In this document: piece by piece, positions 5,870 through 63,730 of the stretch
How positions within the stretch are numbered: the stretch's first letter is position 1
Layout: each line of letters opens with the position of its first letter
Program-made: the position numbers and the translations under genes
Assembly (NCBI GenBank): GCA_026770025.1
Contig: JAMXDE010000007.1
Location: 2,997,056 to 3,061,055, forward strand
Direction: 5' to 3'
DNA: 64,000 bases
From: Craspedostauros australis
Taxonomy: Eukaryota; Bacillariophyta; Bacillariophyceae; Mastogloiales; Achnanthaceae
Notes under the pieces: model-generated
Told to the model about the DNA's origin: nothing
The model's input: only the letters and a program-made list of their open reading frames with translations
The model's database searches: none

Positions 5870-8800
5870 ATGAGCAAGGAAGAGGAATTGAAAGACATCC
5901 CTCTGTTCAATCTGGCTATCAAGCAAGAAGAAGGTGCGAGTGAGACTCGACCACGAAAAGAGAAGGAAGCAGCCGCGGCTACTGTCCTATCAGGCGCATA
6001 CGCAAGCGCAATCGACGAGACCAAAGAGGAACGGTCTGCAAGACTACACCGTGAGGAGGAGAGGATTCTCAAGGCGGTCAAGCAAGAGGAGACTGGTGTG
6101 ACAGAGAGCATTCGCACAGCCAAACAGGGTGAGAAAAGTGAGACACCACCAGGAGGAGAATTTGTGAGGAAATCAATCCTCGCGAAACAACAAGCGAAAA
6201 TCGAAGAATCGGCAACACAGAAACAGACGGAAACTAAGGGCGCGAGCGCACCAACAACGAAACAACGAACCAACATGGCGACATCAGCCAACATGAACAA
6301 GCGACGCATCAAGGCGCCGATGTTCAGCGGTGAACAGGAAGACTACAGCGCATGGGAGTCCCAAGCGAAGGCATACGCTCGTGCACAGAAGACGAGAGAC
6401 GTGATGTTGGGCAAGACTAAGGTGCCAACAGTGAGTGAGATCGCGGCAGCCACCGCTGAAGCCAAGGAAGCGATGGAAGAGATCTACGAGTTGGGATGCG
6501 ACTGCTTCAGCGATCTGATCCTCATGATGGATGCAGAGAAAGGAAAAGGTAAGCAGGCCATCCAGTACATCAACCAATGCATCTCCGACGACTACCCCGA
6601 AGGAGACGCACACGGAGCGTGGAACGTTCTCGCGGAGAAGTTCCGACCATCCGACGCGGTGACGAAGATCAAACTCAAGCGCCAATTCAACAACGAAAAG
6701 ATGAAGAGAGACACGGACCCCGACATCTACATCACGCAACTCGAGAGTCTACGATCGCGTCTCCACGATGTCAAGTACGAGATCTCGGACGAGGAAATGG
6801 TCATGCAAATCCTCAGCACGGTGAGCAACGAGTACAGAACTCACATCGTGAACTTCCAACACCAACTCACGTTCAATCCGGAACTGGTCACCATCAACTC
6901 GATCAGAGGAGTACTCCGTACTGCATACGCCACTCACAGAGGGGGCAAAGCATACGTCGACGACTTCCAAGACAGTAACACGAAGAGCAACGACACCGGC
7001 TTCACAAGCACCGGTAACTTCAAGGGTACTTGTCACAACTGTGGCGTGTATGGCCATAGATCCGCCGATTGCCCAGAACGCAAGAAACCGAACAACAAGA
7101 AAAACAACAACAACAACAACAAGATGAACGGAAAACGCAACAAGGGAACCGGCTTCAAGGGCAAGTGCAACTACTGCGGCATCTTCGGACATCGCGAGGC
7201 GGAGTGCCGAAAGAAGAAGTTCAACGAAAGCAAGAAGAACAACGAACAAGCCAACGCGGCTACGGAAGGACACGACAAGAGCGGGCACGAGATGGTACTC
7301 TCTGCGAAAGACATGCCGCTCTGCATGTTGGTGTCCAACGACTACATCGAAGACTCCTTCTTCGATAACTTCGAGTACGTCGGGAGTGACGACGAAGTAC
7401 AGGACGATGAGATCGTCCCGGAGTGGCTCAGTGAGGAGCCAATCATCCACGAGGTGGATCCAAGACGCGAAGTGAGCTACGAATGCTGCTTCAACGCGCA
7501 CGACCTGATCGGTTCATACGGCGACGAAGCTGAGATGGACGACGAGGCCAATGATAGCGACATCGAAGAGGCCATGAGCGATGACGACGACGACGACGAC
7601 GAGGATGGCGTAAATGAAGACGATGAGGCGGACCGCGGCGCGGCGCCTCCTCCTCCAGCGGCGGGGAACAACAGATCGGGCATTTTCGACGAGGATGACA
7701 GCGACGAATCCGAGGACGGCAATCATCCAGACGACAGCTTCAATCCAAACGAGCGTGTCGTTTACCCAGGGAACATCGACTTCCCACCTATTGAGGATCC
7801 CAACAGCGTCGATTACCTCCTCCGTCACAGCACCATCCCAAATGCAACAGCAACAGCATTGATAATCCAAAAGCAGCTCATCTTTGACGCCGTAATGGAA
7901 GCGGGGATGCGAATGTTCCCAGGAACAACACGAGGAGCACTCATGCCAATATGGGTGAACATGATGGGATCCATCCTATCCGAGCACTTCGAATCAATCG
8001 AAGAGATCCTCGCCAATGCGATCATCATCAACCGCATACTGGAAGCGAACAACTCGGAAACGATCCCAGAGACGGATCTGCATTACATCCTTGGAGGATG
8101 CATGCGTGTACTCTTGCAAGAGCGATCACGCGTCCACCCATACGATCCAGCCACAGGATCTCATCGGAACAGTACAATTCCATCGGACTACGCGCAACTA
8201 CCCAATGACATGGATGACAGAGATCATCATCCTCCATACAACGAAGATGGAGTTCACGAAGACGACGACGACGGCAGCTTCAACGACGAGATAGCTGCAG
8301 CAGCCGTGGAGCAGCTCCACGAGCTGAGCACCAAGTACAAGGACAAGGTCAACAAGGACACCTGGCTCGCCGACAGTGGAGCTTCGTGTCACATCGTCAA
8401 TTCAGACGCCGCTCTCTTCAACGTGCGGCACATCAAGTCCTTCGTCCAAGTGGGAGACAGCACGAAGCTGGACTCTCCCAAGATAGGATCCATTCGCTTG
8501 AAGGTCAAGCAGCGAGACAACACTGGCCACATCATCCGGCTCGATGATGTGAAGTACACACCCAAGATGGCGGTGAACCTTTTCTCCACGAACAAGGCTC
8601 TGTACAACGGTTACCAGCTTGGTAACAACGGCATTCTGATGGACATCATCAATGGATCCGGAACGAAGATCGTGTTCGATCGAGTCTTCCCCACATCCAA
8701 CGGATTCATCACGGGAGTGCAGATGCATCCCATCATGCCATCGAACGACGACAAGGCTTGCACAGCCATCGTCAAGAATCCATCCAAGGAGATCAGCGCG

Positions 8801-11800
8801 GTAAACCTGCATCGAATGCTCGGCCACGCACCACTCGAGACCATGAAGCGGACAGCCGCCCAATACGGATGGAAGATTATCGGCGAGATGCCGGTATGTC
8901 GCGACTGCGCGGTCGCGAACGCAAGAGTGAAGAACATTCCGAAGGCAACCATTCCCAGAGCAACTCGCCGTGGCGAACGGCTCTTCATTGACATTAGTTA
9001 CACTAAACACATAAGCTTCGGAGAGAAACGCTACTGGACTCTGATTGTGGACGACTGCATGGATCACTGCTGGAGTTTCTTTCTCAAGAACAAGAGTGAC
9101 CAACCAGGATACATCAAACGATTCGTCCAGACGATCAAATCACAGACTGGTGACCAACAGATCATCTTCCGAGGTGACAACAGCGGAGAGAACAAATCCA
9201 CGCAGGATATTCTCATCGATGCAGGACTCAACGTGAAATTCAAATTCATGGCATCGAACACGCCGCAACAGAACGGCAGAGTGGAACGCAAGTTCGCGTA
9301 TCTCTACACCAAGATCCGCTCCATGCTCAACGGAGCACAGCTCGATGAAGAGTATAGGCATGGCCTGTGGGCAGCAGCTGCTAGCACTGCCACCGCCATC
9401 GCCAACATCACCGTAGCGAAGAACCAGAAGGAGTCACCACATCAACAATTCTTCGGCAACGATCCACCATATGCGGATGCACTCCGCACATTTGGAGAGG
9501 TAGGTGTTGTGAAGACCACCTACGGCGGGATCACCACCAAACTCAAGAACAGAGGAGAAGAGATGGTGTTCATCGGATATGCACACCACCATGCATCAGG
9601 GGTCTACAACATGTACAGACCATCAACCAAATCACTGGTCTGCTCTCGTGACATCAAGTGGCTCAACCAATCATACAGACAGTTCTGTGGCTGGGCACCA
9701 GCACCGAACATATCCATCGAAGCAGGAACGACGGATGCAGACGGCTTCACAACCATTGGACGGAAGGGAGCAATGCCAAAGACGGCAACGCGTCAGGCAT
9801 CAGAAGCGAAGAGAGTATCTTTCGCTGACAGCAACAGCTATTACATCCTATCGGATAGCGACGATGAGGATGATGAGGACGATGGAGCAGTAACCCAACT
9901 AATCCATAACGACGAGGAAGATCGGAGCGAATCCAACCATAAGGATGACGAGATCACACCATCCGGCGACGAAGCCGACGATGATACAGGCGTCACTCCT
10001 CCGAACACACCAGCGAGGTCTACACATGACACACCATCCAGACCTCCACCAAGCAAACCAAGCAAGCGTGACATAGCTAGAAAGGAGAGGATCCGACGTC
10101 ACGAAGCACAAGGCAGGAAGGGAGAAGCTAATCCCAAGCCAACTGCAGGGAAGAATATTCCCAGAGTTCTGCGTGAGCTCGCAGACTTCAATGAACGAGG
10201 ACGAAAGGAAGAAGGCTATGAGAGTAAATCATCATCCAATGAGGCGAGTGACGAACTCAGCGACGAGATGATCGATGATTCCAACAACGAGACTACAGAT
10301 GATGAAGAAATCATGGATGAAGGAGAGATCGAAATCATCCATCATAGCACAACAGGACTATATGGGATGAACGCAATCATCACCAAGGCACCAGCGATTG
10401 ACATCGGACTGTCGATGCAGGACGAGAACAAGGAACCAGAGAAGCACATCGAACCAACAACATTCGATGGAGCCTTTAATCATCCAAATCCCATCCATCG
10501 AAAGGGATATCGAGCAGCCATCAAAAAGGAATTCAACTCCATGGATACACGCAAGGTGTACAACAAGATCAAACGAGACGCCATTCCACGCGGCCACAGA
10601 TGCTGCAAGTGCAAATGGGTCTTCAAGCTGAAACGCGACGGCACACATCGAGCGCGACTTGTTGCATGTGGCTACTCACAAATCGCAGGAGTAGACTTCC
10701 AAGAGCATTACTCACCCGTCATCCATGACGTGACCTATCGGGTCATGATGGTGATCATGCTAATCAAGAAGATGGACTGCGCACTCATCGATGTCGTAAC
10801 GGCATTCCTACATGGAGACCTCGACGAGGAGATCTACATGAACTGTCCCAACAGGATGGATCATCAACCAGACGAAGCCCTGACCCTACACAAGCCAATC
10901 TACGGACTTGTGCAGAGCGCCAGGCAATGGTTCAAGATGTTGGTATCGACCCTCAAGAATATCAACTTCGAACAGAGCGCAGCAGACCCGTGCCTGTTCT
11001 ACAGGAAGACGAACGAAGGAAGCATGATCGTGGCCATCTACGTGGACGGTTGCTTCTGTTGCGGAGACTCCAAGGCACTGGAGACATTCCTGAAGGACAT
11101 CCAAGGCAGCAAATTCAAGGTAACAATCGAGCGCGGACTCGGAGACTACCTCAGCTGCAACATTGAACTGAACCATGACAAGACTAGAGCGACATTGCGT
11201 CAACCACATCTCATCCGACACCTCATCGAAGAGTTCGGAACCAAGGTTGAGAAGATGCAACGCTACGGGACACTGGGAACCCTGGGTCAAATCATCGTAC
11301 GACCATCCGAAGATAACAGACTACAGAAGGTCGGACCGGAAGAACATGCCGAATACCGCCGAGGCGTCGGTATGCTACTCTTCCTCATCAAGCACTCGCG
11401 ACCAGATATCGCGAACCCTGTGAGGGAACTCTCCAAGGTATTGATCGGGCCCACCAAGGCCGCAATGAAGGAGATGTATCGGATCATCAAGCATGTGATC
11501 GATACAAAGAACTATGGATTGAAGATCCATCCAGCGCGTCCAGACGACGACGGCTGGGACATGGAGCTCTTCTGCGATAGCGAATATGCAGGAGACAAGA
11601 ACACGAGAATCAGCGTAGGGGGATTCATCCTATACCTGTGCAAGGTGCCAATCCTTTGGCGATCCAAGGCACAGAAGGCCGTCACACTCAGCTCATCCGA
11701 AGCAGAATACGTTGCCCTTTCCAAAGCGGCAAAGGAAATCTTCTTCGTTGTGCAGCTACTCGAAAGTGTGGGCATCCCAGTGAAGACACCGATCAAGGTC

Positions 11801-12037
11801 CGCGTGGACAACATCGGAGCGATCTTCATCGCCAAGAACCCATCAACATCCCAACGATCGCGGCACATCGACGTGCGCCATCACTACGTGAGGAACATGG
11901 TAATCAACAAAACCATCGAAATCATTTTCGTCAAATCCGAGCAGAACACAAGCGACGGATTCACCAAGAACATCAAGGCCGACTTGCAACGTGAACATGA
12001 GAAGTCGTACCTTGACACATCGAGAACATTCGAATGA
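5870..12037 (+). CDS. Copia Gag-Pol polyprotein, family A copy 1 (RT active site altered)
   Basis: This is one 2,055-codon polyprotein combining Gag and Pol. Two CCHC zinc knuckles (from C388 and C433) flank an Asn/Lys-rich linker in Gag. A long acidic segment follows, then protease with DSGAS (D835). Integrase has an HHCC finger (H981, H986, C1010, C1013) and a DD35E triad (D1041, D1103, E1139). RT and RNase H complete it (DSEYAGD, SSEAEYVAL, VDNIGAIF). The RT active-site box reads YVDG at residues 1724-1727, where the sister copy at 21 kb has YVDD. This loses a metal-binding Asp, so this copy is probably unable to reverse transcribe although its frame is intact. The ATG at 5870 matches the other two family A copies. 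Confidence 0.93.
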   Translation: MSKEEELKDIPLFNLAIKQEEGASETRPRKEKEAAAATVLSGAYASAIDETKEERSARLHREEERILKAVKQEETGVTESIRTAKQGEKSETPPGGEFVRKSILAKQQAKIEESATQKQTETKGASAPTTKQRTNMATSANMNKRRIKAPMFSGEQEDYSAWESQAKAYARAQKTRDVMLGKTKVPTVSEIAAATAEAKEAMEEIYELGCDCFSDLILMMDAEKGKGKQAIQYINQCISDDYPEGDAHGAWNVLAEKFRPSDAVTKIKLKRQFNNEKMKRDTDPDIYITQLESLRSRLHDVKYEISDEEMVMQILSTVSNEYRTHIVNFQHQLTFNPELVTINSIRGVLRTAYATHRGGKAYVDDFQDSNTKSNDTGFTSTGNFKGTCHNCGVYGHRSADCPERKKPNNKKNNNNNNKMNGKRNKGTGFKGKCNYCGIFGHREAECRKKKFNESKKNNEQANAATEGHDKSGHEMVLSAKDMPLCMLVSNDYIEDSFFDNFEYVGSDDEVQDDEIVPEWLSEEPIIHEVDPRREVSYECCFNAHDLIGSYGDEAEMDDEANDSDIEEAMSDDDDDDDEDGVNEDDEADRGAAPPPPAAGNNRSGIFDEDDSDESEDGNHPDDSFNPNERVVYPGNIDFPPIEDPNSVDYLLRHSTIPNATATALIIQKQLIFDAVMEAGMRMFPGTTRGALMPIWVNMMGSILSEHFESIEEILANAIIINRILEANNSETIPETDLHYILGGCMRVLLQERSRVHPYDPATGSHRNSTIPSDYAQLPNDMDDRDHHPPYNEDGVHEDDDDGSFNDEIAAAAVEQLHELSTKYKDKVNKDTWLADSGASCHIVNSDAALFNVRHIKSFVQVGDSTKLDSPKIGSIRLKVKQRDNTGHIIRLDDVKYTPKMAVNLFSTNKALYNGYQLGNNGILMDIINGSGTKIVFDRVFPTSNGFITGVQMHPIMPSNDDKACTAIVKNPSKEISAVNLHRMLGHAPLETMKRTAAQYGWKIIGEMPVCRDCAVANARVKNIPKATIPRATRRGERLFIDISYTKHISFGEKRYWTLIVDDCMDHCWSFFLKNKSDQPGYIKRFVQTIKSQTGDQQIIFRGDNSGENKSTQDILIDAGLNVKFKFMASNTPQQNGRVERKFAYLYTKIRSMLNGAQLDEEYRHGLWAAAASTATAIANITVAKNQKESPHQQFFGNDPPYADALRTFGEVGVVKTTYGGITTKLKNRGEEMVFIGYAHHHASGVYNMYRPSTKSLVCSRDIKWLNQSYRQFCGWAPAPNISIEAGTTDADGFTTIGRKGAMPKTATRQASEAKRVSFADSNSYYILSDSDDEDDEDDGAVTQLIHNDEEDRSESNHKDDEITPSGDEADDDTGVTPPNTPARSTHDTPSRPPPSKPSKRDIARKERIRRHEAQGRKGEANPKPTAGKNIPRVLRELADFNERGRKEEGYESKSSSNEASDELSDEMIDDSNNETTDDEEIMDEGEIEIIHHSTTGLYGMNAIITKAPAIDIGLSMQDENKEPEKHIEPTTFDGAFNHPNPIHRKGYRAAIKKEFNSMDTRKVYNKIKRDAIPRGHRCCKCKWVFKLKRDGTHRARLVACGYSQIAGVDFQEHYSPVIHDVTYRVMMVIMLIKKMDCALIDVVTAFLHGDLDEEIYMNCPNRMDHQPDEALTLHKPIYGLVQSARQWFKMLVSTLKNINFEQSAADPCLFYRKTNEGSMIVAIYVDGCFCCGDSKALETFLKDIQGSKFKVTIERGLGDYLSCNIELNHDKTRATLRQPHLIRHLIEEFGTKVEKMQRYGTLGTLGQIIVRPSEDNRLQKVGPEEHAEYRRGVGMLLFLIKHSRPDIANPVRELSKVLIGPTKAAMKEMYRIIKHVIDTKNYGLKIHPARPDDDGWDMELFCDSEYAGDKNTRISVGGFILYLCKVPILWRSKAQKAVTLSSSEAEYVALSKAAKEIFFVVQLLESVGIPVKTPIKVRVDNIGAIFIAKNPSTSQRSRHIDVRHHYVRNMVINKTIEIIFVKSEQNTSDGFTKNIKADLQREHEKSYLDTSRTFE

Positions 12038-13146: not shown

Positions 13147-13184
<38 letters not shown>

Positions 13185-13393
13185 GAAACCTGTCTGTTCT
13201 GAAAATTATGTCCGTGCAGGGCGGTCATTTGCTCACCGTGGATCCTACGCGTGGTTTGTGCGGTACCGTCTGTCCATCGACACTCATCGTTCGGATTCGG
13301 CCAGATTCGGGAATTGGCACTAAATCTGCACACGAGAGGGTCTCGGATCCGTGAACCAACCAGAAATGTACCGACTCAGTCTCATTGACAAAA
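12853..13393. other. Spacer between family A copy 1 and the TRIM
   Basis: No gene seen. It holds the 35-G homopolymer (listed separately) and ends with the CAAAA target duplication of the TRIM. Confidence 0.6.
13149..13183 (+). repeat. Poly-G homopolymer, 35 bases
   Basis: An uninterrupted run of 35 G follows ACCGGAGGTGTT. Such a tract can form G-quadruplexes, and its recorded length may be affected by sequencing. Confidence 0.9.
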
Positions 13394-13599
13394 TATCAGC
13401 ACAAAATCGAATAGTGCTAAGTACGTTACTCCCGTAGCCCCCATTATCTATAAATTTCACTTGTGTTCGGATCAGCAATCGCATCGCCTGTAGCTCAACG
13501 GTAGAGCACCAGTAATTCTCACTGAGGTTCCGGGTTCGAATCCCGGCATGGTACTTTGCTTTTGCTCTCCCCTCGTGATTTTTCGATAGTGCTCTAATA
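13394..13599 (+). repeat. TRIM 5' LTR (206 bp)
   Basis: Carries a TATAAATTT box (13449-13457), then a tRNA-like unit with intact A and B boxes and a TTTT run (13560-13563). It is identical by eye to the 3' copy. Confidence 0.9.
13484..13554 (+). tRNA. tRNA-like sequence with A and B boxes inside the TRIM 5' LTR (probably not a working tRNA)
   Basis: The A box TAGCTCAACGG (13491-13501) and B box GGTTCGAATCC (13533-13543) match the Pol III consensus. The D stem GCTC/GAGC and T stem CCGGG/CCCGG pair perfectly. The anticodon stem CAGT/ACTG pairs around a 7-base loop AATTCTC, whose central triplet would be UUC (Glu). The base before that triplet is A instead of the usual U, and only four of seven acceptor pairs form. 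This suggests a decayed tRNA kept as a promoter. TATAAATTT lies 35 bp upstream and TTTT 6 bp downstream. Confidence 0.5.
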
Positions 13600-13613
13600 G
13601 ATTAACAGTCGCA
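13600..13613 (+). other. Primer-binding site of the TRIM
   Basis: GATTAACAGTCGCA abuts the 5' LTR. Its complement, TGCGACTGTTAATC, has the form of nucleotides 27-40 of a tRNA-Asn(GUU): 5' anticodon stem, loop CTGTTAA and the first two bases of the 3' stem. This is the half-tRNA priming known for Drosophila copia. The same 14 bases occur at 35271-35284. Confidence 0.7.
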
Positions 13614-13849
13614 GCTAGTTCTACATCGCTGAGTTAGGACAACCTTGCACAACACGCCTTCGTGGGCGCGTTGCGATCACCGGATTTCGACCCAGTCTCA
13701 CACTTGTCTGCTACGGCAGCACTCCCACTTCGTCTGGCAGTATTAGCCACCCAGCAATGAGGGTGCCCCGAGATGGGGAGACGCGGGAGATGACAACTTT
13801 CCGTCATAGTGCTCTTGAGCAGGTGGTCCACGGTCGTAGCGTAGGGGAG

Positions 13850-14055
13850 TATCAGCACAAAATCGAATAGTGCTAAGTACGTTACTCCCGTAGCCCCCAT
13901 TATCTATAAATTTCACTTGTGTTCGGATCAGCAATCGCATCGCCTGTAGCTCAACGGTAGAGCACCAGTAATTCTCACTGAGGTTCCGGGTTCGAATCCC
14001 GGCATGGTACTTTGCTTTTGCTCTCCCCTCGTGATTTTTCGATAGTGCTCTAATA
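13850..14055 (+). repeat. TRIM 3' LTR (206 bp)
   Basis: Identical by eye to 13394-13599. It follows the polypurine tract GTAGGGGAG and is followed by the CAAAA duplication. Confidence 0.9.
13940..14010 (+). tRNA. tRNA-like sequence with A and B boxes inside the TRIM 3' LTR
   Basis: Second copy of the unit at 13484-13554, with the A box at 13947-13957 and the B box at 13989-13999. The same structural defects apply, namely a weak acceptor stem and no U before the putative anticodon. Confidence 0.5.
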
Positions 14056-14060
14056 CAAAA

Positions 14061-28068: not shown

Positions 28069-28855
28069 TGTCGAGATGTACATGTGAGTATATGTCAAGA
28101 TGTACGTGTATATGTGCATCGTTCACCCGCTATTCTCTCATACGCACTTGGACGGTATAACTATACTCGTGTCGATAGTATACTGTGATTCGTCAGAATT
28201 ACAGGGGAAATGGAACACACGAAAAGGGGCAAGATTTCTGGAGGAAATTTGCAAATAACGATTTCTGAGAGAATCAGAAGATCGTCCGTCCATGCATCAA
28301 TGGTACCAAGAGAATCTCGAGGTACTTCCCAACTAAACCTCAGATGACGATATCATCTGACAGACTACTGCATCACCAATGGAACGTGACATCTGGAGAG
28401 CAGAAGGACGCCTACTGACGTCAACAGGATGTCAGCATGTCACCACGTTGACAGCTGTCTCCAAGTCAGAGCAGGAGGCGAAGATACGATGACCCATGAA
28501 GATCATGGGTACTGAAGGTGAACTTCAAATGGTAAGTACTCATGGAGTAGAAGCCAGTACTGAATGAACGGAGTGTCGAATGCGGAGCACGCATCGAACA
28601 CGGAGTATCGTGTAGCACGAACACACGATGTTGAGAGAGAGAAAATACAGAGAGGAGCGAGAGAGGATCTCGCGTACCGACTCATAGTTGGAGACCGAAT
28701 CTACGAAACAGATTGAAGCGCCGAGAGCATCGGGCAAGAGAACGAACGGACACCGAGAGTATCGGAGTGCCAATGTAATGAAATAGCAAACAGACGACTA
28801 TCAACCAACACCATCTTCCACGATCGTAGGTTACCGTGAGCGGAACTTGCCAACA
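28069..28855 (+). repeat. 3' LTR, family A copy 2
   Basis: Starts TGTCGAGATG after AGGAAGGG and ends TTGCCAACA. The next base belongs to the minus-strand element. The minus-strand frame reads ~57 codons into this LTR. Confidence 0.92.
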
Positions 28856-31800
28856 TTGGGTGGCTTGGTCCGATCTGGGATCAGTGCGGGGGACTGCTCT
28901 GATCTTGTTGGTAGGGTCAAGGATGGACAGATGGTTGGGCATGTAGTTCATGGCTGTCGTTCGTGCCCTTGGCATGACGTTGCAGGATTGGAGTCGCCTT
29001 GGGGATGGGGATGGCTCTGGCATGGGAAGGTCCATTCTGGTCCTCTTCCTTGGGTTGGTGGCCTCCTTGGCACCTGGTTCCGTCATGGAGAACGATCTTC
29101 CGGTCACCGACCCGTCTTGCGGGGTCAATGGCATTGGGTGCATATCCAAATGCTCCTCTCCCAGCCTTGGTCTGGTTGCTGGGCGTAGAGATGGGCTCGT
29201 CACGATCTTCCTGGGCTGATTGGGAGCATCGAAGATCCTCACCATGATCTCTGGGCTCCTGGGTGGTAATGGTGTTCCCACTGATTCATCAAGGGTCTCT
29301 CTTTCATCTGGGGAGTCGCCACAGTCGTCGATGTGGTTGCTGGCATGGGTGGTTTGGGTATGCGCCTGGTTTGGGTTGATCTTGTCTGGTCGGTAGATGG
29401 GTGTCGACTCCTCGATGCCCAGAGATTCTGACTCTGGCATGTCCTTCTTGTTGGAAGGATCTGGGGCCTTCTGGAGTGGTCTATACTTGTCAATGTAGAC
29501 TCCCCTATCATGAGTACCGGCCAAGATCTTGGGTGGTGGCGACGTGTGTTGGGAGCGTTGGACTGATGGCCTGGGGATGGGCAGTGAGCTGGTGACAATT
29601 CCTTGTGCAATTGCAGCTTCTGTGTCAGTGGTTTCCCTTGGCTTGGCTGCGCTGGTTGCTGCGGGTTCCTGATCGATGTACCCTTCTGGAACCTCTGATA
29701 GGAATTTCCCATTGACTGTCTCTCCTTCCTTGAGGCAGGGTTGTCGGTCATCGATTTCAGGGATGCCGTTGACTATCTCATCCTCGGTGATGGGTAGACT
29801 AGGATCCTGTTTGAGTGCTGCCTGTGTCCGTTCCAAGTTCACTGCGATGGGGTCGCTCTGGTTCTGGATACTTTGTGTCTGCTTCGCTCGTGCGAGGATG
29901 ACAGGAATGCAGTTCTTCCTCAAACTGAAGAAGTGGCAGGTCGATGATCTCAGATTCGTGGATCTGTCCATGCTGGGTTTCTCTGCCCATGCGCCATCGT
30001 CAGCTGGGTAGAAATACTGTCCATCAGCGATCGCGATGCTGGGGGCCTCGGTATCCTTGAGGTCTTCATCGAGATATTCATAGAGGGAAAGCGGAAATAC
30101 GGATTGGCTGTCTGCATAGGACATGGTGTCAGCATGGACCTTCCTGTTGCCCTTGGTACAGGTGATACAGGCCCTGTGACCACTGTAGCCTGTGACAATT
30201 CCACGGAAGGTTCCCTTCTTCCTTGTAGGGTACAGTACCTGAGAGCTGGCAACGTGTTCCGGCGTGATGAAAATCCGAGGCGTCAAACTTCCCGATGTCA
30301 ATGAATAATTGGTGTCTGGCAGTGGGCTGGATTCTGTTGCGGGATCCGTTGGTGATGCGTCGACGGGTTGGTGACGAAAATTGTCACGTGGTCCATTACT
30401 CGGCTCGTAATTGTTAGTCGTGGCAAGGATATCGGGCATGTCGCATGCGACAACAAAACTCGGTGGGGCCCGTCGGTTGGATTCGGCCAACGTGATTGCG
30501 ATCGGTGTGACAGGTCTGGGTGGCCTTCTCCGGGACCTCTCTAGAGGGGTCGGCTCCCGTCGAGTTCTCGCGAGCCAGAGGGTAGTTGACGATGTGCTGA
30601 TGTCCATGCGTGTTTGTTGGTACCGGATGACATTGATGTTTCTTGTATCGGTGCGTCTCTTGCTGTGGCATGATTGCTCCTCTGGTCGATCGGTTGGCAG
30701 GTCGGGGTCGTCTTCCGCTCTGGTGACCTTGGCGCGCGGTTTCGCGGGGGATACGATTTCATGGTAGGGCCCTGGTTCGTATATTAAGTTCCTGAGGACC
30801 GTCTTCGATGCGATGTGACGGAAGGGGGTTTTGGAGAGTGGTTTGGTGTGCATGTCAGCGGTGTTGTTGATTGAAGTAATGCACCAGAGTACGATGATAC
30901 CTGCGGCGATGCACTCTCGGACCTGGTGGAATGCCAAGGAGCAGTGTTTCTTCTTCAAGGGCAATGGAGGGGCCGTGGTGTTCAGTAACATTGCCTTGTT
31001 GTCTCTCATCATGATTGCTGGTCCATCAATGGGTAGTGCGAGGTCCATCAGTGTATGTCGTAGCCCGGTTTTTGACTTCGTGGCACTCCTAGCAGCGCCC
31101 AGGTTCGATCCATGCGTGGGGTTCTCCACAGCGTCCTGTCGTTTGCAGATGGTCTTGATTTTAGATTGGTTCGTCCTGTGGGAATTGATCCTCCAAGGGA
31201 TGTCCTTTCTGGCGTTGATGGTAAAGGGGGGTCGCTTCTCTTGCCTGTTCCTCCCATTCCCTCCCCTTTCTTCGGGGCCGTCATCCATTTGTTGGTAGGA
31301 TGGTGGTCCCGACGAACAAAGAAGGTGCGATGGCCCTGGATTGGAGTCGTCCTCCTCATGGGGCTTGTGTGCCATTGGTTCGATGGAGCCGGCTGTCATC
31401 ATGAGCTCCCCTGTCGCGGGAGGTTCCTCTTCGATGGTGGGTGCTGCATGCGGTGGGGTTCCGGCATCGTCATGCGTCGGGGCCAGACCATTCTCCTCTG
31501 GGGTTGCTGGCGAAAGGTCGTATTGGTCATCATGGAAACCACTCCAATCGAAGGTCTTGTTGCCTCCGTTCGGATTCTTGGTGAGATAGCAACTCATGGG
31601 GACGTTGCATTCAAGCCCACCCTGGTGGTCTGGTGGGTTCCATTCCTGTTTCGAGGTGATGTCATGCGGAGGGAGGTCCTCGTCATCTTTCATGATAGGA
31701 ATCACGTAGAATGTCATCAATGCATCCCTCATCTCCAGGTTGATGATCATGTTTTCATCAGGCATTCGATACTGTCTTCCTGTTCCTGATGTGGGGAATG

Positions 31801-34552
31801 ATGCCCAATGTTCCGTGGAGACCGTGTCGAGGACAGTTCCGCTTGTCCGGGTTTGGTGGTTCACCACTTGGAGGGAAACCGCATCGCCCGTGAACTTGAT
31901 GGAGTCCAGGGTGGGTCGCTGTTTCGCCAGCTTGGCTGACACAGACGGGGTTTCACCATGGTTGGCTTCCTGATGGCGAGAGTACCCAGGTACATGTTGC
32001 CCACAGCGAGTACTGGGTGCCTCAATGTGCGGTCCTGGCCCTGGCCCTCCATGGTGGGTTCCATGGTCGGTTGCCTGGTGTCCGTATCCAGTTAGTCTTG
32101 GAGGGTACCCTGATTGGAGGTTTCCAATAGGTGCGAAGGCACCTGGTGCTGTTTGGTTGTCTTCACTTCCATTTGGCACGTATCCCATGCGAACAGGGAC
32201 TCCAATAGGCGGGAATCCTTCTGGGTGGGGTTGCGCATACGCCGTATGTGGTTGGCCATATGCGTGAGGAGGCCCCATGTTAGGTGGGTATCCATGGCAC
32301 ACTGTGTTGTCATATCTGTAGATGCCATAGGGATTGAGAAAATGGCAGTGTATTTGTCCCGTTCCATGGTTCATGCCTGCGTTCGCAGTTGGGTTTTGGT
32401 TCGTCGGTTCGCGTCTGCCGTTGCCATGGTTACTGGCCATCCCATGGGGTGGCAGGTAGCCCATGGTACCATGATGGTTCCATGAGTTCCGGTTGTCCGC
32501 GGGGCGGTTCCCACTGCTCTCTGAGTGGGTCACTCGGGGTCCGGCAGGATCTCCTGGGTCCCTGGTGGTTGTCTTGGGGGTGAAGGTTGCCACCTTGGCG
32601 TCGGGTGGCCTGCGATCATGTCCGCCAATAGTAGCGGGGTTCACGTCGAGGAACAGTCCGCTCCTTTCGTCGGGTCCGCGCTCGTTGGTTGATCCAGTAG
32701 CTTTGCTGGTGATGCTGTGCAGGTTGTGGTCGTCATTGGGACTGGTGCTCGTGGCGTTCGGGTTGGGGCGCCGCTTCGTCAGCTTGGCGGGAGGAGTTGG
32801 GGTATCACCATGGGTGCCTCCCTGATGGGGTGCGTCCCCAAATGCGTGGTGCCCATGGTGGGTGTCAGGACCTAAGACGTGTGGGTCTGGTCCCATTCGG
32901 TTCGCGCCATGACCTGTCGCTTGGTTCCCGTGTCCTGGTGGTCTTGGGGGGTACCCAGGTTGGGGAATTCCAACAGGCATGAAAGCTCTCAGGGCAGTCG
33001 GGTAGCCTACATTTCCGTTTGGGGGGTATCCCATGTGGACAGGGATTCCGATGGATGGGAATCCTCCTGGATGTGGATGTGGGTATGCTGGGCGTGGGCT
33101 CCTATGTGCGTGGAAGGTATCCATGCGGGGTGGGTATCCATGGGGTCCGTCGTTGGTGTGACCATGGTTACCATTGGGTCCAGGGTCTTGGTGATGCAGA
33201 TGATCTGTTCCATGGTTCGCTCCTGTGTTGGCGGTTGGGTTTCGGATTGTTGGTTCGCGTCCGTCGTGGTTATGGTAGCTGGCCATACCGTGAGGTGGTG
33301 GGTTGCCCATGGTACCATGATGGTCCCATGAGCTTCGGTTGCTCGCTGGACGGTTCCCACCTTTCTCCTGGTGGGTCATCCGAGATGTGGCAGTGTCTCC
33401 TGGATCTCTGGTAGTCGTCCCATGGGCGAAGGTTACTGCCTTGGCTTCAGGTGGTCTGCGACCGTGACCGTCAATAGTCGTGGGGCAAACGTTGGGGGAC
33501 ATTCTGATCCTTCCATCGGGTCCACATTTGGTGGCTGGTCCGGTAGTTTCGTTGGTGTCCGGGTGCTGGTCGTTGTCGTTGCTGGGGCTGGTACCTGCAG
33601 CATTTGGGTTGTCGCTGTAGGCATCGGTTGCTGTTGGGGATGTCGTCATGGATCCACGCTCAGCAATACCAGAGAGTTGGGTTTCGTCAGGGAGGGTGCC
33701 CGAGGTGCACTCCGGGGCGGCTCCACCGGCTAGGGATGAGAACCCAAAGGGGGTACCTCCTGGGCGGCTGTCGCTGTCTCGTCCTGTCTTGAGGATTGAG
33801 GTTTCAGATCTGGTCGAGGTGCTGGTGGCATTGGGGTTAGAGAGAAATGTCTTGTACTCCACGACAGCAGTTAGCCACTCACCATTGTGCGTGCGCCTGC
33901 CGCGTCTTTCGAATCGGTCGAAGGCCATCATCGTTTTCTCGGTGCTTTCTGCGTCGATGAACATCCTATTGAGAGTTTGGTCGAGGGATGAGTCTCTGTT
34001 GACTTTGATAAATCCTACCCACTCGGCGATGTGGTAGACGAGGAGTCCTGTCTCGAAGTGTCTTGCGACGTCGTCCGGGTCCGTGAAGTTGATCATGATG
34101 GCTCCAGGGACCATGGTTGGGGTCCCTTCGTGGATGGTGGTCAGTAGTTCGGGGAGTGTCTTCTCGATCGCGAGTGCGCTGGTTTTAAAGAGGCCAAAAA
34201 CCGTGGCAGTCTCGATGCTAATCCCAAAGTACTGCTTGAGGTCGGTGAATGCGTCCCAGGTGGTCTTGTGGACATGGCACACCACTTCGTCGTCGTGGGT
34301 CTTCTCCTTTCGGTTCCACGCGTCGACGATGATGGGGTGTCCGAAGGTTGCTTCGATGAACTTCTTTCCCATCTCAGTGGGGAAGAGTGACGAAGGTCCA
34401 TCCATCAGGGCGCCTGCCGTGTCATTGAGGAGGACAGAGAGGCTGGGGTCCTTCGGGTCCTTGGGGTCGGTCTCGAAGGCATCGGTCAAATCACCTGGGC
34501 TCCTCTTGGAGGGTCCCCTGGTGGAGGGAACGATGCGGTTGGTACGAGTCAT
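28856..34552 (-). CDS. Chimeric Gag-like/Pol-remnant protein lacking protease, integrase and RT (3' truncated)
   Basis: About 1,899 codons are open from the ATG at 34552; the frame runs on ~57 codons into the neighbouring LTR. Residues 1-240 are a Gag-like region with no named domain. Residues ~315-596 and ~597-880 are a tandem duplication rich in His, Pro, Gly and Asn. Residues ~885-985 match the segment that follows protease in the 35.5-kb Copia (a PDENMIINLEMRDAL stretch, then EWNPPD against EWDPST). Residues ~1160-1245 match the end of Copia RNase H (RDNKAML, LAFHQVRECIAAGII, ADMHTKPLS). The protease core, all of integrase and all of RT are missing between them. The C-terminal ~650 residues are P/S/D-rich and unrecognised. 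A frame this long without stops argues against simple decay. Confidence 0.75.
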
Positions 34553-34583
34553 CTTGCAGAGGTCTAAGAGCTTGACAATCTTT

Positions 34584-34597
34584 TGCCACTGTTAATC
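34584..34597 (-). other. Primer-binding site of the minus-strand element
   Basis: Minus strand GATTAACAGTGGCA directly after the LTR, one mismatch from the TRIM and 35.2-kb Copia sites. It fits the same tRNA-Asn anticodon-arm primer. Confidence 0.65.
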
Positions 34598-35213: not shown

Positions 35214-35270
35214 ACTTGATCTCTCTTGAAGGAATCGTGTGATTTCGCTGTGTACGATAACGAGATAACA
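35214..35270 (+). repeat. Remnant of the 5' LTR (last 57 bp)
   Basis: ACTTGATCTC...GAGATAACA corresponds to 41447-41503 in the 3' LTR. Upstream it abuts the terminal GCTCTATTA of the minus-strand LTR. Confidence 0.85.
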
Positions 35271-35284
35271 GATTAACAGTCGCA
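35271..35284 (+). other. Primer-binding site of the second-lineage Copia
   Basis: GATTAACAGTCGCA, identical to the TRIM site and complementary to a tRNA-Asn(GUU)-like anticodon arm up to nucleotide 40. Confidence 0.7.
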
Positions 35285-35386
35285 AGCACTACGTCCTGAC
35301 CTGACTGAGTGAACCCCCCTCCAACCCACCGAGCTGATCCCATCAGCACCGAACCGATTGCATCACGTGACGACGTGAAGCAAGAA

Positions 35387-35548
35387 CCGAACAAGAACAA
35401 GAGCCTTCTAAGGCAGCGCACATGAACACACCGAGCACAGCGTATCCGCTTCTCCGTACCGAACCGAACAACAGCAAGAGCCACCAAAGGCATCGCAAAC
35501 GAACACACCGAGCACAGCGTATCCGCTTCTCCGTGACGAACCGAACCG
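35387..35548 (+). repeat. Tandem duplication in the Gag-Pol leader
   Basis: Two ~80-bp copies, each with CACACCGAGCACAGCGTATC followed by CGCTTCTCCGT and ACGAACCGAAC or a close variant, lie just before the ATG at 35555. They are spaced ~85 bp apart. Confidence 0.75.
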
Positions 35549-35554
35549 AACAAG

Positions 35555-38500
35555 ATGACAGAACCCACCGAACCCATCACCATCCTGAACCACGTCCTCA
35601 AGGCCGTGGGTATCTCCGACGACTCCGACCATCGCCGCGTTATCATCGACGCAGCGGTGGAGAATGTTGACGACCTCACCTTCCTCACCAAGGAAGACCT
35701 CGACGGTCTTCATCGCGACATCACTCCCACCTCGGGAGACCCATACTCATGTCGATTGACTGCGTTGCACATTCGCAAGATCCTCGCACTCCCAATGTGG
35801 TATGACGCGCAAGCTGACGACGACGACTCCGTCTGGCTTGACCTGAATGCTGCGAGGCTCCAGAGCTTCATGAGAGCTGAACTCAAGAAACGCGTGGAAG
35901 CCTCCACACCGACACCCGAACCCACCATGTCATCCATGGTGACACCACCACCACCTACTGAACCTGTCTCTGATGGAGCCGCTGCCTTCGACAAGGGCAT
36001 CAAGCGAAACCTCAGCGACTATCCGATCCTGAAGAGTGATGACCAGTTCATGGTCTTCGACCGACGTCTCCGAGCCACCGCTGCAGCGCACGGTGTGAAG
36101 AACGTCGTAGACCCCGAGTACCTCCCGACCCAAGACGAGGCTGAGCTGTTCGACAAACAGCGCACCTTCCTCTTCTACGTCTTGACCCACTGTCTCAGGA
36201 CCACGAAGAGCCGCAACTGTCTCCAGGCATACGCCGATGACGAGAACGGTCATGGGGTGTATACCATGCTCCGTGAAGAGTATGCAACCGGAGTAGCTGC
36301 AGCCAACAAGGCTCAGCTGATCCAAGAGGAGATCCGGAACCTCAAGATGAACCACTCGTGGAACAGCAGCCGCGAAGCCTTCGTGAACAGCTGGCTCAGC
36401 AAGATCAACGACCTCGAAGAGATCCAGGATGCACCTGTCTCTGAGGACTGGAAGCTTCAGTGGCTCAAGGAGGCCATCACCCCTGATGCTGACCTCTTCC
36501 GTTCCCTTGACGACGCCGATGCTCTCCAGAGCAACTTGGCGTTGGCGACAGGAAAGACCAACTTCAGGTTGGACTTCGATGCCTTCCTTGGTGTTGTGCG
36601 CAGATCCGCACAGCGCAATGACCTGCGCATCCCACGCAACAAGGCCAAGCGCAGAGTCAATAACACAAACAAGGAAGCAAGTAACAACGAGAACAAGACC
36701 AACCAATCCAAGAACAAGAACACGAACAAGCGAATCCCAGACAACGAATGGAAGCAAATGACCTGGGATCAGAAGAAGGCTCACATGCAGTCCAAGGGTA
36801 CTTGGGACCCCAAGTACACCAGGGATGCATCGAACAGACAGGCCAACAAGACATCCGCCACTGGCAATGGGGGTGGTGGGCAGACCAAGTCCACCTCAAC
36901 CTCAGGCAGCGCCGGTTCTGACGAACTCCCCGGCGATGCCATCAAGCGCATGTTGGCCAATGCCACGACCAACACCAACACTTCCGACGAAGTCGCCATC
37001 CAGGGCAAGATCTACCATGCTGTTCAGGCCATAGTCCTGCAATACAGCTTCAACAAGACCGATGTTGCGAAGGCCGGTTCCCTGATCGACAGCGGTGCGA
37101 ATGGAGGATTGGCAGGCGATGATGTGACTATCATCAGCCGTACCAACCATACCACCGACATCAGCGGAATTGGAGACACCGCAATCGTCAACCTGGACAT
37201 TGGAACGGTCGCTGGACTCGTCATGTCCACCGAGGGACCTATCATTGCGAAGTTTCACCAATACGCCCTCTATGGCAAGGGCAAGACGATTCACTCGACG
37301 AATCAGCTCGGTGCATTCGGTCTCGATGTCAACGAGCGTCCTCGCGAACTCCCTGGAGGGAGACAGACAATCATCGTGCCTGATGGGCATGTGATCCCTC
37401 TCTCCATCCGACAGGACCTGTCCTACATGGACATGAGACCTCTCACACGCAAGGAGATTGACACGTACCCTCACGTGGATTTCACTGCCGACGAAGAGTG
37501 GGACCCATCCACTCTCGACCACGAGTTCACTTTGCTGGACGAGACCTCCGATGGTGCCCCAGACGACGGCGTCCACTCACCGGACTCCATCGAAGTGTTC
37601 ACCAGTGAGACCGGTGCCTCACAGCAGGGCGCTATCACTCGCGTGAAGCCAAAGATCGACTATGAGGCCCTCCGTCCGTACTTTGGATGGATCTCGGCCA
37701 GAAGAGTCCAAGACACTCTCAAGTGCACATCCCAATGGTACCGCACCTCCGAGCGGTTCACCATGAGGAAGCACTTCAAGACCAGATTCCCTGCCGCGAA
37801 CGTGGACAGACTCCACAAGACTGTTGCCATGGACACGTTGTTCTCTGACACACCTGCACACGACGATGGTGTGCCAGGCCATGGTGGCAGCACGATGATG
37901 CAAGTATACGTGGCCGTGGATTCTCGCTTCACCGCAGGATTCCCCATGACATCGGAGAAGCAAGTCGCTTCCACTCTCCAAGACTTCATCCGGTGTCATG
38001 GAGCTCCTGACCTCCTGATGTCCGATAACGCGAAATCCGAGATCGGATTCAAGGTCCAAGACATCCTCCGACAGTACTCCATCGCTGATCATCAGAGCGA
38101 GCCGGAGCACCAGCACCAGAACGCCGCAGAGAGGCGTATCCAAGACATCAAGCGCATGACGAACGGCATCATGGATAGGACGGGCACACCTGCTCGCTTC
38201 TGGCTCATATGCACCATGTATGTCATTGTGCTCTTCAACCACTTGGCTCAACGCACAGCGGGTAACGTCACGCCGATGCAGGCAGCCTACGGACACCGTC
38301 CCGATGTGAGCAAGTTCCTTGCCTACCGATGGTGGCAGCCGGTGTACTACCGCGTGGAGAAACCTGGCTTTCCCAGCCAGTCCAAGGAGCGGAAGGGGAG
38401 ATGGGCCGGACCCTGTCTCCACAAGGGTGACGAACTCACCTTCTGGGTGTTGGACGATGACACCCAACAGCTCCTCCCTCGATCCTCGATCCGTGCAGCC

Positions 38501-40945
38501 GACGAGCACGGCTCCTGCAACCTGCGTGTCGACTTTCCCCTGGCCGACGTTGGGAAGGAGGACGGCTCGGACACGAACCCATCTGATGATGGGGAGCTTG
38601 AAGACGACGTCCCAGTGCCTGATGGAATGCAACCAGTTGTACATTCCCTAGGAGACGCCGTTCTTTTCGCTTCTGCGGAGTCCGATCCTGAAACGGCGGA
38701 CATGGCAAGAGTCTCCATCCCTCGATTCACACCAGAGGATCTCATCGGCAAGACCTTCCTATACGACCGTGACGGACAGAGAGTCAAGGCCGAAGTCATC
38801 CAACGCGTCAACGATGCAGATGCAGCGAACCACCAGCGAATCAAGATGTTGCTCGCCTTTGACGATGGAGCCACCAACGAACTCATCTCCTACGTCCAGC
38901 TGTCCGACATCATCGAACAGCAGCTCGAACGCAACGAAGACAACGAAGACGGAGTATGGGGATTCCAAGGCATCATCGGACACGAAGGACCTCTCGCTCC
39001 GAACGCCAAGACCTACAAGGGGTCCCGATACAATGTCATTGTACAATGGGATGACGGATCAACAACATCCGAACCACTCTCCACCATGTTGCAAGATGAT
39101 CCTGTATCATGTGCGGCATACGGCCGGAAGAACGGATTGCTCGATCAGCCTGGATGGAAACAGCTGAAGAAGCTCTCTGACCGACAGGCTCGAATGGAGC
39201 GCAAGACCTCCATCAACAAGGCCAAGAAGCACACCAACGCACCCATCTACCAGTTCGGTGTTCAGGTACCACGCAATCACCAAGAAGCCGTACGCCTCGA
39301 CAAACGCAACGGCAATACGCTCTGGGCAGATGCAGAACGTACCGAGATGGAACAGCTCTTCGGATATGAGACATTCCGATCGCTCGGCAAGACCAAGACC
39401 GTTCCAGACGGATACCAACAGATCCGGCTGCAATGGGTCTACGCGGTCAAGCACGACCTCCGACACCGAGCACGATGTGTGGCAGGTGGCCACCTGACGG
39501 ACCCATGCAAGGACTCCTCCTACGCCGGAGTTGTCAGTTTGCAGTCACTCAGAATCGCCCTACTCGCTGGCGAACTGAACGGACTCAAGACCATGGTCGG
39601 CGACATTGGAAACGCCTACCTGGAGGCATACACGAAGGAGAAGATTCGCTTCGTAGCCGGCGACGAGTTCGGGGAGCATGCAGGCCACATGCTCACGATT
39701 GTCAAGGCGCTCTACGGCCTCCCGACATCCGGAGCTCGCTTCCACGAAGCGCTGGCAGATACCCTTCGAGACATGGGCTTCCAGCAGTGCAGGTCTGACC
39801 CCGACGTATGGATGCGTGATGCAGGTCCGCACTGGGAATACGTATGTGTATACGTAGACGATCTCATGGCGGTCATGTCTGACCCACGTTCCTTCTTCGA
39901 CACTCTCACTTCGCAGTACGGCTACAAGCTCAAAGGTGTCGGTTCCATCTCCTACCATCTAGGAGCAGACTTCGGAAGAGACAGCGACGGCACAATGAAG
40001 ATCAGCGCGCGTTCCTACATCAAGCGCATGCTCACGAACTACGAACAGATGTTCGACGGACCACCCAACAAGACCAGCTGCCCCATGGACAAGGACGACA
40101 GTCCTGAGCTCGATACGACACCCGAGCTCGGGGAGATCGATCGAACCAAGTACATGTCGTTGATCGGAGCACTCCAATGGTGTGTGTCTCTGGGAAGGAT
40201 CGACATACATGTGGCGGTCATGACTCTTTCCCGTTTCCGTGCATCACCAAGAGCAGGACACATGGACAGAGTGAAACGCATCTACGGGTATCTTCGAAAA
40301 TACCCAGACGCTTCCATCCGCTTCCGAACCGGAATCCCCAACCATGAAGAACACTACGACATCCCACAGCACAAATGGATGTACTCTGTGTACGGACCCA
40401 ACCGAGAGGAGCTGCCGGCGGATGCACCGACAGCCAAAGGCAAACCAGTACGTACCACGACTTTCGTTGATGCGAATCTCATGCACTGCAAGGTGACTGG
40501 GAAATCAGCAACTGGTATCGTGCATCTCATCAACCAAACACCCATCGAATGGTTCTCGAAGCGACAGTCCACCGTGGAGACGGCCACCTACGGATCAGAA
40601 TTCGTGGCAGCACGGTTGGCAACCGAACAGATCATGTCCATCCGCTTGATGCTGTGCGAAATGGGAATACCAGTGGACGGACCAAGCTGGCTCTTTGGTG
40701 ACAACCAGAGCGTAGTCACATCCTCCACCATCCCAACCAGTGTACTATCCAAGAGACACAACGCACTGGCCTACCACCGAGTCCGATCGGCCATCGCCGC
40801 TGGGACAATGTACTTCATCAAGATCAAGGGAAACCAGAACATCGCCGACATCCTCACGAAATTCCTTCCACGATCGGTTTTCTGGGACCTCATCCAACCA
40901 CTGTTGTTCTGGAAGGGCAACACCGATCCCAACCACATCAAGTGA
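35555..40945 (+). CDS. Copia Gag-Pol polyprotein, second lineage, apparently intact
   Basis: A 1,796-codon single-frame polyprotein. The Gag region (~1-500) is helical and basic near 365-420, with no CCHC zinc knuckle. Protease has SLIDSGANGGLAGDD (D512). Integrase has the triad D760, D824 and E859, but a canonical HHCC finger is not evident before it. A hinge of ~400 residues precedes RT, which has VYVDDLMAV (D1435, D1436) and GNAYLEAYTKEK. RNase H has TFVDANL, TYGSEFVAARL, GDNQSV and HNALAYHRVRSAIAAG. Absence of the knuckle and the unusual protease box separate it from family A and resemble Copia lineages described from diatoms. All main catalytic residues are present. Confidence 0.92.
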   Translation: MTEPTEPITILNHVLKAVGISDDSDHRRVIIDAAVENVDDLTFLTKEDLDGLHRDITPTSGDPYSCRLTALHIRKILALPMWYDAQADDDDSVWLDLNAARLQSFMRAELKKRVEASTPTPEPTMSSMVTPPPPTEPVSDGAAAFDKGIKRNLSDYPILKSDDQFMVFDRRLRATAAAHGVKNVVDPEYLPTQDEAELFDKQRTFLFYVLTHCLRTTKSRNCLQAYADDENGHGVYTMLREEYATGVAAANKAQLIQEEIRNLKMNHSWNSSREAFVNSWLSKINDLEEIQDAPVSEDWKLQWLKEAITPDADLFRSLDDADALQSNLALATGKTNFRLDFDAFLGVVRRSAQRNDLRIPRNKAKRRVNNTNKEASNNENKTNQSKNKNTNKRIPDNEWKQMTWDQKKAHMQSKGTWDPKYTRDASNRQANKTSATGNGGGGQTKSTSTSGSAGSDELPGDAIKRMLANATTNTNTSDEVAIQGKIYHAVQAIVLQYSFNKTDVAKAGSLIDSGANGGLAGDDVTIISRTNHTTDISGIGDTAIVNLDIGTVAGLVMSTEGPIIAKFHQYALYGKGKTIHSTNQLGAFGLDVNERPRELPGGRQTIIVPDGHVIPLSIRQDLSYMDMRPLTRKEIDTYPHVDFTADEEWDPSTLDHEFTLLDETSDGAPDDGVHSPDSIEVFTSETGASQQGAITRVKPKIDYEALRPYFGWISARRVQDTLKCTSQWYRTSERFTMRKHFKTRFPAANVDRLHKTVAMDTLFSDTPAHDDGVPGHGGSTMMQVYVAVDSRFTAGFPMTSEKQVASTLQDFIRCHGAPDLLMSDNAKSEIGFKVQDILRQYSIADHQSEPEHQHQNAAERRIQDIKRMTNGIMDRTGTPARFWLICTMYVIVLFNHLAQRTAGNVTPMQAAYGHRPDVSKFLAYRWWQPVYYRVEKPGFPSQSKERKGRWAGPCLHKGDELTFWVLDDDTQQLLPRSSIRAADEHGSCNLRVDFPLADVGKEDGSDTNPSDDGELEDDVPVPDGMQPVVHSLGDAVLFASAESDPETADMARVSIPRFTPEDLIGKTFLYDRDGQRVKAEVIQRVNDADAANHQRIKMLLAFDDGATNELISYVQLSDIIEQQLERNEDNEDGVWGFQGIIGHEGPLAPNAKTYKGSRYNVIVQWDDGSTTSEPLSTMLQDDPVSCAAYGRKNGLLDQPGWKQLKKLSDRQARMERKTSINKAKKHTNAPIYQFGVQVPRNHQEAVRLDKRNGNTLWADAERTEMEQLFGYETFRSLGKTKTVPDGYQQIRLQWVYAVKHDLRHRARCVAGGHLTDPCKDSSYAGVVSLQSLRIALLAGELNGLKTMVGDIGNAYLEAYTKEKIRFVAGDEFGEHAGHMLTIVKALYGLPTSGARFHEALADTLRDMGFQQCRSDPDVWMRDAGPHWEYVCVYVDDLMAVMSDPRSFFDTLTSQYGYKLKGVGSISYHLGADFGRDSDGTMKISARSYIKRMLTNYEQMFDGPPNKTSCPMDKDDSPELDTTPELGEIDRTKYMSLIGALQWCVSLGRIDIHVAVMTLSRFRASPRAGHMDRVKRIYGYLRKYPDASIRFRTGIPNHEEHYDIPQHKWMYSVYGPNREELPADAPTAKGKPVRTTTFVDANLMHCKVTGKSATGIVHLINQTPIEWFSKRQSTVETATYGSEFVAARLATEQIMSIRLMLCEMGIPVDGPSWLFGDNQSVVTSSTIPTSVLSKRHNALAYHRVRSAIAAGTMYFIKIKGNQNIADILTKFLPRSVFWDLIQPLLFWKGNTDPNHIK

Positions 40946-40970
40946 CTACGAAAAGATACGTTTCGGGGAG

Positions 40971-41503
40971 TATTAGCACAACGCTTTATTCACCTGATTC
41001 GTTTTCTGATTAGTCTGTCCTGGTATGTGCTGAAACGATGCTTTACTCCGACACATGATTTTCGGCATAAGAGGGACACACTAGGGAGAACATCAGAGAT
41101 TCGGTCTGGCCATCGCCCGGAAAAAAGGTGATGCCCAATTTGACCTGATATACTTCCCAACTAAACCTGAAATGACAACACACCCGACGACCTCAAGCAT
41201 CATCAATGGAATGTGGAATCGACAGAGCCATGGAACGGTGATGAGTGACGTCGACACAGAAGACATCATCGCCACATCATGGGTCATCTCCACATCAGAA
41301 CAAGATCGGATTCGAGGTGCAATGACTGAGAGCTGACCTTGAAGACAGCAACATGAGATACAACTCAATGAAGATAACATAAGAGCAGAAGTCACTCAAC
41401 CCAAACAGTGTCTTCACTTACCAGCTTGTCACCCTCGTCCTGAAAGACTTGATCTCTCTTGAAGGACTCGTGTGATTTCGCTGTGTACGATAACGAGATA
41501 ACA
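40971..41503 (+). repeat. 3' LTR of the second-lineage Copia (533 bp)
   Basis: Begins TATTAGCAC after the polypurine GGGGAG and ends GAGATAACA. The start resembles the TRIM LTR (TATCAGCAC). At 41151-41168 it contains TACTTCCCAACTAAACCT, also found in every family A LTR. Confidence 0.85.
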
Positions 41504-63663: not shown

Positions 63664-63689
63664 GGTTAGGGTTAGGGTTAGGGTTAGGG

Positions 63690-63730
<41 letters not shown>

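Follow-up and report, generated by a model that had tools for sequence, protein, structure and literature searches.

A small LTR retrotransposon of 662 bp was found at positions 13394–14055 of the window (the whole stretch of 64 kb that was analysed), and it is probably a young TRIM of the Helenus type (TRIMp3), that is, a non-coding element with tRNA-derived A and B boxes in its LTRs, which would be transcribed by Pol III, packaged by Copia proteins and primed by tRNA-Asn. It consists of two LTRs of 206 bp each, identical to each other, and an internal region of 250 bp (13600–13849) with the primer site at its start and GGGGAG at its end. The longest stop-free stretch in the six frames of the 662-nt element is 103 codons, and no gene is present. 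An earlier note on this DNA had claimed identical 206-bp LTRs, a CAAAA target duplication, a primer site, a polypurine tract and no coding sequence, all of which were found, and the A and B boxes, the TATA motif 35 bp upstream and the TTTT downstream of the tRNA-like part that it had placed in the LTR could each be located. Its identification as a TRIM stands, with a length below 1 kb, two LTRs without a gene, and both a primer site and a polypurine tract. The features are as follows, with the basis of each in brackets:

13389–13393, no strand: 5' target site duplication CAAAA (sequence)
13394–13599, forward strand: 5' LTR, 206 bp (LTR comparison)
13449–13457, forward strand: TATA motif TATAAATTT, starting 35 bp before the tRNA-like part begins (converted from LTR positions)
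13484–13553, forward strand: tRNA-like segment of the 5' LTR, with most pairs formed in the D, anticodon and T arms but not in the acceptor stem (Rfam RF00005 at 13489–13548; pairing)
13491–13501, forward strand: A box TAGCTCAACGG (converted from LTR positions)
13533–13543, forward strand: B box GGTTCGAATCC (converted from LTR positions)
13560–13563, forward strand: TTTT followed by G, resembling host tRNA terminators (comparison with host tRNA genes)
13579–13583, forward strand: second T run, TTTTT (sequence)
13600–13613, forward strand: primer-binding site GATTAACAGTCGCA, the complement of part of the tRNA-Asn(GUU) anticodon arm (pattern search, tRNA-Asn genes)
13600–13849, forward strand: non-coding internal region, 250 bp (sequence, frames)
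13844–13849, forward strand: end of the polypurine tract, GGGGAG (sequence)
13850–14055, forward strand: 3' LTR, identical to the 5' LTR, with its tRNA-like segment at 13940–14009 (LTR comparison, Rfam)
14056–14060, no strand: 3' target site duplication CAAAA (sequence)

The end of the window is probably a chromosome end, since a GGTTAG array (63664–64000) closes it at the end of the contig (base 3061055), and the TRIM lies about 50 kb away from it. Two tandem arrays of 74-bp units, related to each other, are located near the contig end (50070–50893 and 62508–62965). A run of 35 G residues is present at 13149–13183, some 200 bp upstream of the TRIM.

The earlier note had staked its reading on the presence of other copies in the genome. 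A search of the 74.8-Mb genome revealed at least 21 copies of the internal region and about 120–127 LTRs. Eighteen of the 21 are complete elements with both LTRs, and all 18 are flanked by an exact 5-bp target duplication. The two LTRs are identical in 16 of these complete elements, the remaining two pairs differing at 8 and 6 positions. The three other internal copies are either partial (L032 and L044) or diverged, with one LTR recognised (L051). A 27-base core pattern was found at 127 places in the genome with up to three mismatches (none for the reversed pattern), and patterns of equal length from the U3 and the B-box region were found at 120 and 124 places (none for their controls), so that the family comprises roughly 120–130 LTRs and about 20 internal regions. 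Thirty LTR loci were obtained from 40 matches scored among 135 candidates. Ten complete elements account for 20 of them, and the other 10 are solo LTRs, all of which have exact duplications within these 30 best loci. Older solo LTRs, chosen later, showed an exact duplication in three of 12 cases, a set in which four represent one duplicated insertion and two are truncated. One solo LTR insertion (L122, L124, L125 and L126) has nearly the same flanks on four contigs and is thus a duplicated genomic segment.

The exact duplications at all complete elements, together with the predominance of identical LTR pairs, argue for recent movement, and the recent activity proposed for the window copy is borne out in the family. 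At LTR positions 203–206 two types of ends were observed: most of the diverged copies end in TTTCA, and most copies with a sequence close to that of the window one end in CTAATA. L048 and L049 end in TTTCA yet belong to elements with identical LTR pairs. As both types occur among such elements, two forms with different LTR termini appear to have moved recently. Targeting of tRNA genes was considered and dropped, since none were called by ARAGORN within 1.5 kb on each side of loci L001–L051, which overlap and represent 31 distinct insertions.

The Rfam tRNA model matched both LTRs (13489–13548 and 13945–14004) with 35 bits, above the gathering score of 29 (E 0.0013), and the match spans positions 6–65 of the 71 in the model, i.e. 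without the acceptor ends. This covariance-model check had been suggested beforehand for the LTR, and its outcome, together with the pairing in the D, anticodon and T arms, supports the claim of a tRNA-derived, partly foldable segment with A and B boxes in each LTR. ARAGORN called no tRNA in the 64-kb window. Pairing was compared in 32 distinct LTRs, for which identical LTRs were merged and the truncated L123 and L131 as well as L122, L125 and L126 (the same insertion as L124) were left out. The D- and T-arm pairs form in 30–32 of them. In the anticodon stem the first pair forms in none, the last in 28 and the other three in all 32, and among the seven pairs of the acceptor stem three form in none and a fourth in 24. 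By its sequence, the segment is promoter-like and not a working tRNA. For the donor tRNA, the best matches are Thr-AGT, Arg-TCT and organelle Arg-CCG with 52 identical positions, the others having 49–51 (63 of 1610 candidates scored, 46 loci used).

The number of parsimony changes per site in the 32 distinct LTRs, a sample biased by 12 old copies picked by core match, was only modestly lower in the tRNA-like region (0.59) than in U3 (0.95) and the whole LTR (about 0.77), with 0.73 for the A box (about average) and 0.64 for the B box. The 27-base pattern counts (120 for U3, 127 for the core and 124 for the B-box region) made no segment stand out. As neither measure singles out the boxes, their conservation was dropped as proof of function. 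Paired changes were observed in the T-arm stem, from CCGGG/CCCGG to CCAGG/CCTGG and others, which look compensatory. CpG makes up 24 of the 206 LTR positions. Compared with the window LTR, the C-to-T and G-to-A differences fell at CpG in 10 of 10 cases in L051, 8 of 8 in L127, 7 of 7 in L124, 6 of 7 in L121, 7 of 11 in L129 and 6 of 8 in L132. Since these changes in several old copies are mostly at CpG, such decay alone could yield the paired T-arm changes, and the latter were set aside. In L051, L127 and L124 the differences suggest methylation-linked decay, which is less marked in other old copies.

From the signals in the LTR we infer that the TRIM is transcribed by Pol III. A first T run of four to six residues is located within 40 nt in 32 of 35 presumed nuclear tRNA genes of the host, and in 28 of the 35 the T run is followed by G, as in the TTTTG of the LTR. 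TATAAAT, which the LTR has 35 bp upstream of its tRNA-like part, was found upstream of three of the 35 host tRNA genes, a number reached in none of 500 mononucleotide shuffles, and TATAAATT upstream of two (1 of 500 shuffles). Looser motifs gave three genes for TATAAA (25 of 500 shuffles) and four for TATAWA (23 of 500). The TATAAA sites of the three host genes are at −27, −43 and −43, and the LTR motif is at −35. The TATA motif and TTTTG are thus compatible with a Pol III unit but no proof of it, the same TATA being suited to Pol II too.

In the proposed mechanism, Pol III would start close to the beginning of the tRNA-like part of the 5' LTR, at about LTR position 88–91. Both TTTT and TTTTT also sit in the 5' LTR, which is a difficulty for this model: such runs apparently terminate the host tRNA genes, so most Pol III transcripts should end after about 80–100 nt. 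If the host Pol III stops at TTTT, a full RNA would need read-through of both 5' LTR runs. A fraction of the transcripts would read through them, and the T run in the 3' LTR would end transcription. The repeated R region would then be the tRNA-like unit and the full RNA would measure about 536 nt. The predicted RNAs are two abundant species, about 80 and 100 nt long, and a rarer one of about 536 nt.

It is unlikely, in our estimate, that the TRIM is instead transcribed by Pol II, with a start at about LTR position 86 driven by the TATA motif, and with the tRNA-like segment as a passenger, a source of short RNAs only or a site for TFIIIC binding. TATAAATTT does sit about 30 bp upstream of that proposed start, the T runs would be no obstacle to Pol II, and conservation of the A and B boxes does not clearly exceed that of the remaining LTR. 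TATA-like motifs, however, are also present upstream of some host tRNA genes, so the motif does not favour Pol II alone, and the TTTTG after the tRNA-like part matches the host tRNA genes. In the old copies L051, L121, L129 and L132 the TATA motif is altered, but one or two changes are present in the boxes too, and a comparison of TATA with the boxes therefore decides nothing. The nature of the element itself was also considered. A tRNA-derived SINE, duplicated in tandem by chance, would likewise be short and non-coding with a tRNA-like promoter core; exact 5-bp duplications in 18 of 18 cases, a primer site and a polypurine tract, identical LTR pairs in 16 of 18, target duplications at all 10 young solo LTRs and an element that ends directly at the target duplication make such an origin extremely improbable.

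The primer site is 14 nt long and could pair throughout with the anticodon arm of tRNA-Asn(GUU), ending in the anticodon stem. A pattern made from its complement was found at 27 places in the genome: five tRNA-Asn(GTT) genes, all fetched and called by ARAGORN and selected by the primer-site pattern itself, and 22 copies of a Copia family. The 22 copies share the TRIM primer site, followed by CTCGCTC, and upstream of 21 of them lies an LTR of their own family, whose last 230 bp, the part compared, do not resemble the TRIM LTR. In the Copia element L120 the primer site is again the same, the LTRs are about 620 bp long and start with TATTAGC, GGGGAG precedes the 3' LTR, and the 5-bp duplication is GGTGA; one of its two long frames contains a Copia-type reverse transcriptase domain (RVT_2). 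In the window, Copia-type domains were found in five of the nine long frames scanned, and one element is of the likely helper clade:

35214–41503, forward strand: Copia element, not part of the TRIM, with a remnant 5' LTR (35214–35270), primer site GATTAACAGTCGCA at 35271, ORF 35555–40945, GGGGAG at 40965–40970 and a 3' LTR from 40971 starting with TATTAGCAC (domain scan, sequence)

After GGGGAG this Copia reads TATTAGCAC, compared with TATCAGCAC in the TRIM. Its pol is 68.8% identical to that of L120 over 865 aa, and for the other window Copia (5870–12037) the pol identity is only 21.9% over 525 aa. The reverse strand at 28682–34597 contains a frame of 1956 aa with no Pfam match and, just upstream (34597–34582), the primer-site variant GATTAACAGTGGCAAA; it is probably another LTR element. 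The shared LTR start, primer site and polypurine tract, together with the hybrid described below, point to the Copia clade of L120 and of window 35214–41503, which is likely the helper of the TRIM. The proteins of this Copia family would package the TRIM RNA, reverse transcription would be primed by a 5' half of tRNA-Asn(GUU), and integration of the cDNA would create a 5-bp duplication. Copia elements are known to use half-tRNAs as primers (PMC10886601).

One of the 22 Copia copies, L099 (C14:1572067), has a TRIM LTR upstream, joined at the primer site, a count based on a primer-site list that is complete for the exact pattern only. The junction lies inside a 17-nt stretch common to Copia and to the TRIM copies ending in TTTCA. 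Over 220 bp, LTR and primer site of L099 share 94% identity with the window copy. Within the LTR, 13 of 206 positions are changed relative to the window LTR, and none of these lies in the region 93–194 with both boxes and both T runs. The L099 interior matches L082 at 94.9% identity (1539 bp) and the L120 element at 95.7% (3765 bp), and is then cut off. The 3' end was not found in the 17.5 kb read, and the one sequence recovered in a genome search for the 3' junction that it should have, on contig C29 with two mismatches, is not a junction. The hybrid points directly to the helper family.

A switch between templates packaged together could have joined the TRIM LTR to the Copia interior. We tentatively propose, as a possibility that falls well short of probable, that the Pol III transcript, with the tRNA-like unit as R, serves as template for the Copia reverse transcriptase and that, during co-packaging, the plus-strand strong-stop DNA of the TRIM moves to a Copia cDNA at the tRNA-Asn primer site that both elements have. 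The switch in L099 would then fall where this DNA is normally transferred. Template switching between LTR elements has been proposed for cereal elements, there between R regions (PMC1950507). Because the hybrid lacks a 3' end, DNA recombination between neighbouring repeats, rather than reverse transcription, has to be taken seriously as its source, with a chance not far below even, and L099 would then be no proof of shared particles. This single case among 22 copies sits in a nest of Copia fragments, and the shared 17-nt stretch could guide a DNA event. The junction, however, falls at the primer site, the point of plus-strand strong-stop DNA transfer, and the L099 LTR is full length with its 5' end intact. 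If the proposed template switch is true, a minute TRIM can pass its LTR and a Pol III promoter to an autonomous element.

Among the open-licence papers covered (including PMC12477816, PMC5963040 and PMC2806351), no report of a tRNA-promoter TRIM from a diatom or stramenopile was found, and the words 'diatom' and 'stramenopile' are absent from the main text of PMC10886601. Within that literature, the element appears to represent a known TRIM design in a new host group, probably the diatoms. A diatom host is suggested by a gene for cytochrome c-550 (psbV, a plastid gene) on contig C90, whose best solved relatives are the diatom photosystems 8iwh and 6jlu/6j3y, together with the Copia-type domains in the window. 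TRIMs with a tRNA promoter would now extend to what is probably a stramenopile alga, which favours a repeated origin of this design; several independent origins have been proposed for Helenus (PMC10886601). As a small, young and clearly delimited family, it is suited for testing Pol III origin and terminator read-through in TRIMp3.

The earlier note had compared the element to Cassandra, as an analogous capture outside plants. A tRNA segment is indeed present in a TRIM from a non-plant host, and the closest known elements are Helenus, not Cassandra (PMC10886601). Cassandra of plants also has the promoter of a Pol III gene inside its LTRs, but the sequence it carries is from 5S rRNA and its primer site is of the methionine type (PMC10853983), and its helper is given as unknown by Kojima (PMC10886601). 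No 5S rRNA was found in the LTR, the two Rfam matches in the window both being tRNA. Ajax of nemerteans is similar in its small-RNA promoter in the LTR and its 5-bp duplications, and differs in being 5S-derived and primed at the 3' end of tRNA-Leu (PMC10886601). The genome's Copia elements, which may be CoDi-like (CoDi being the name for diatom Copia, PMC2806351), share primer site, polypurine tract end and LTR start with the TRIM, whereas they are protein-coding and have an LTR of about 620 bp in L120. TRIMs with tRNA-like LTRs were named Helenus, and their Pol III class TRIMp3, by Kojima in 2024, from fungi, animals and Selaginella, their Pol III transcription likewise being a prediction (PMC10886601). 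As in the present TRIM, their LTRs contain tRNA-derived A and B boxes that are mostly not predicted to be a working tRNA (PMC10886601). Fungal Helenus elements have 5-bp duplications, anticodon-arm primer sites and Copia helpers, and tRNA-Asn-GTT was reported once as a fungal primer (PMC10886601). The TRIM described here resembles them in its 5-bp duplications and in an anticodon-arm primer site common to the local Copia, a likeness by architecture and description, and is set apart by its diatom-like host and by the presence of a TRIM-LTR/Copia hybrid.
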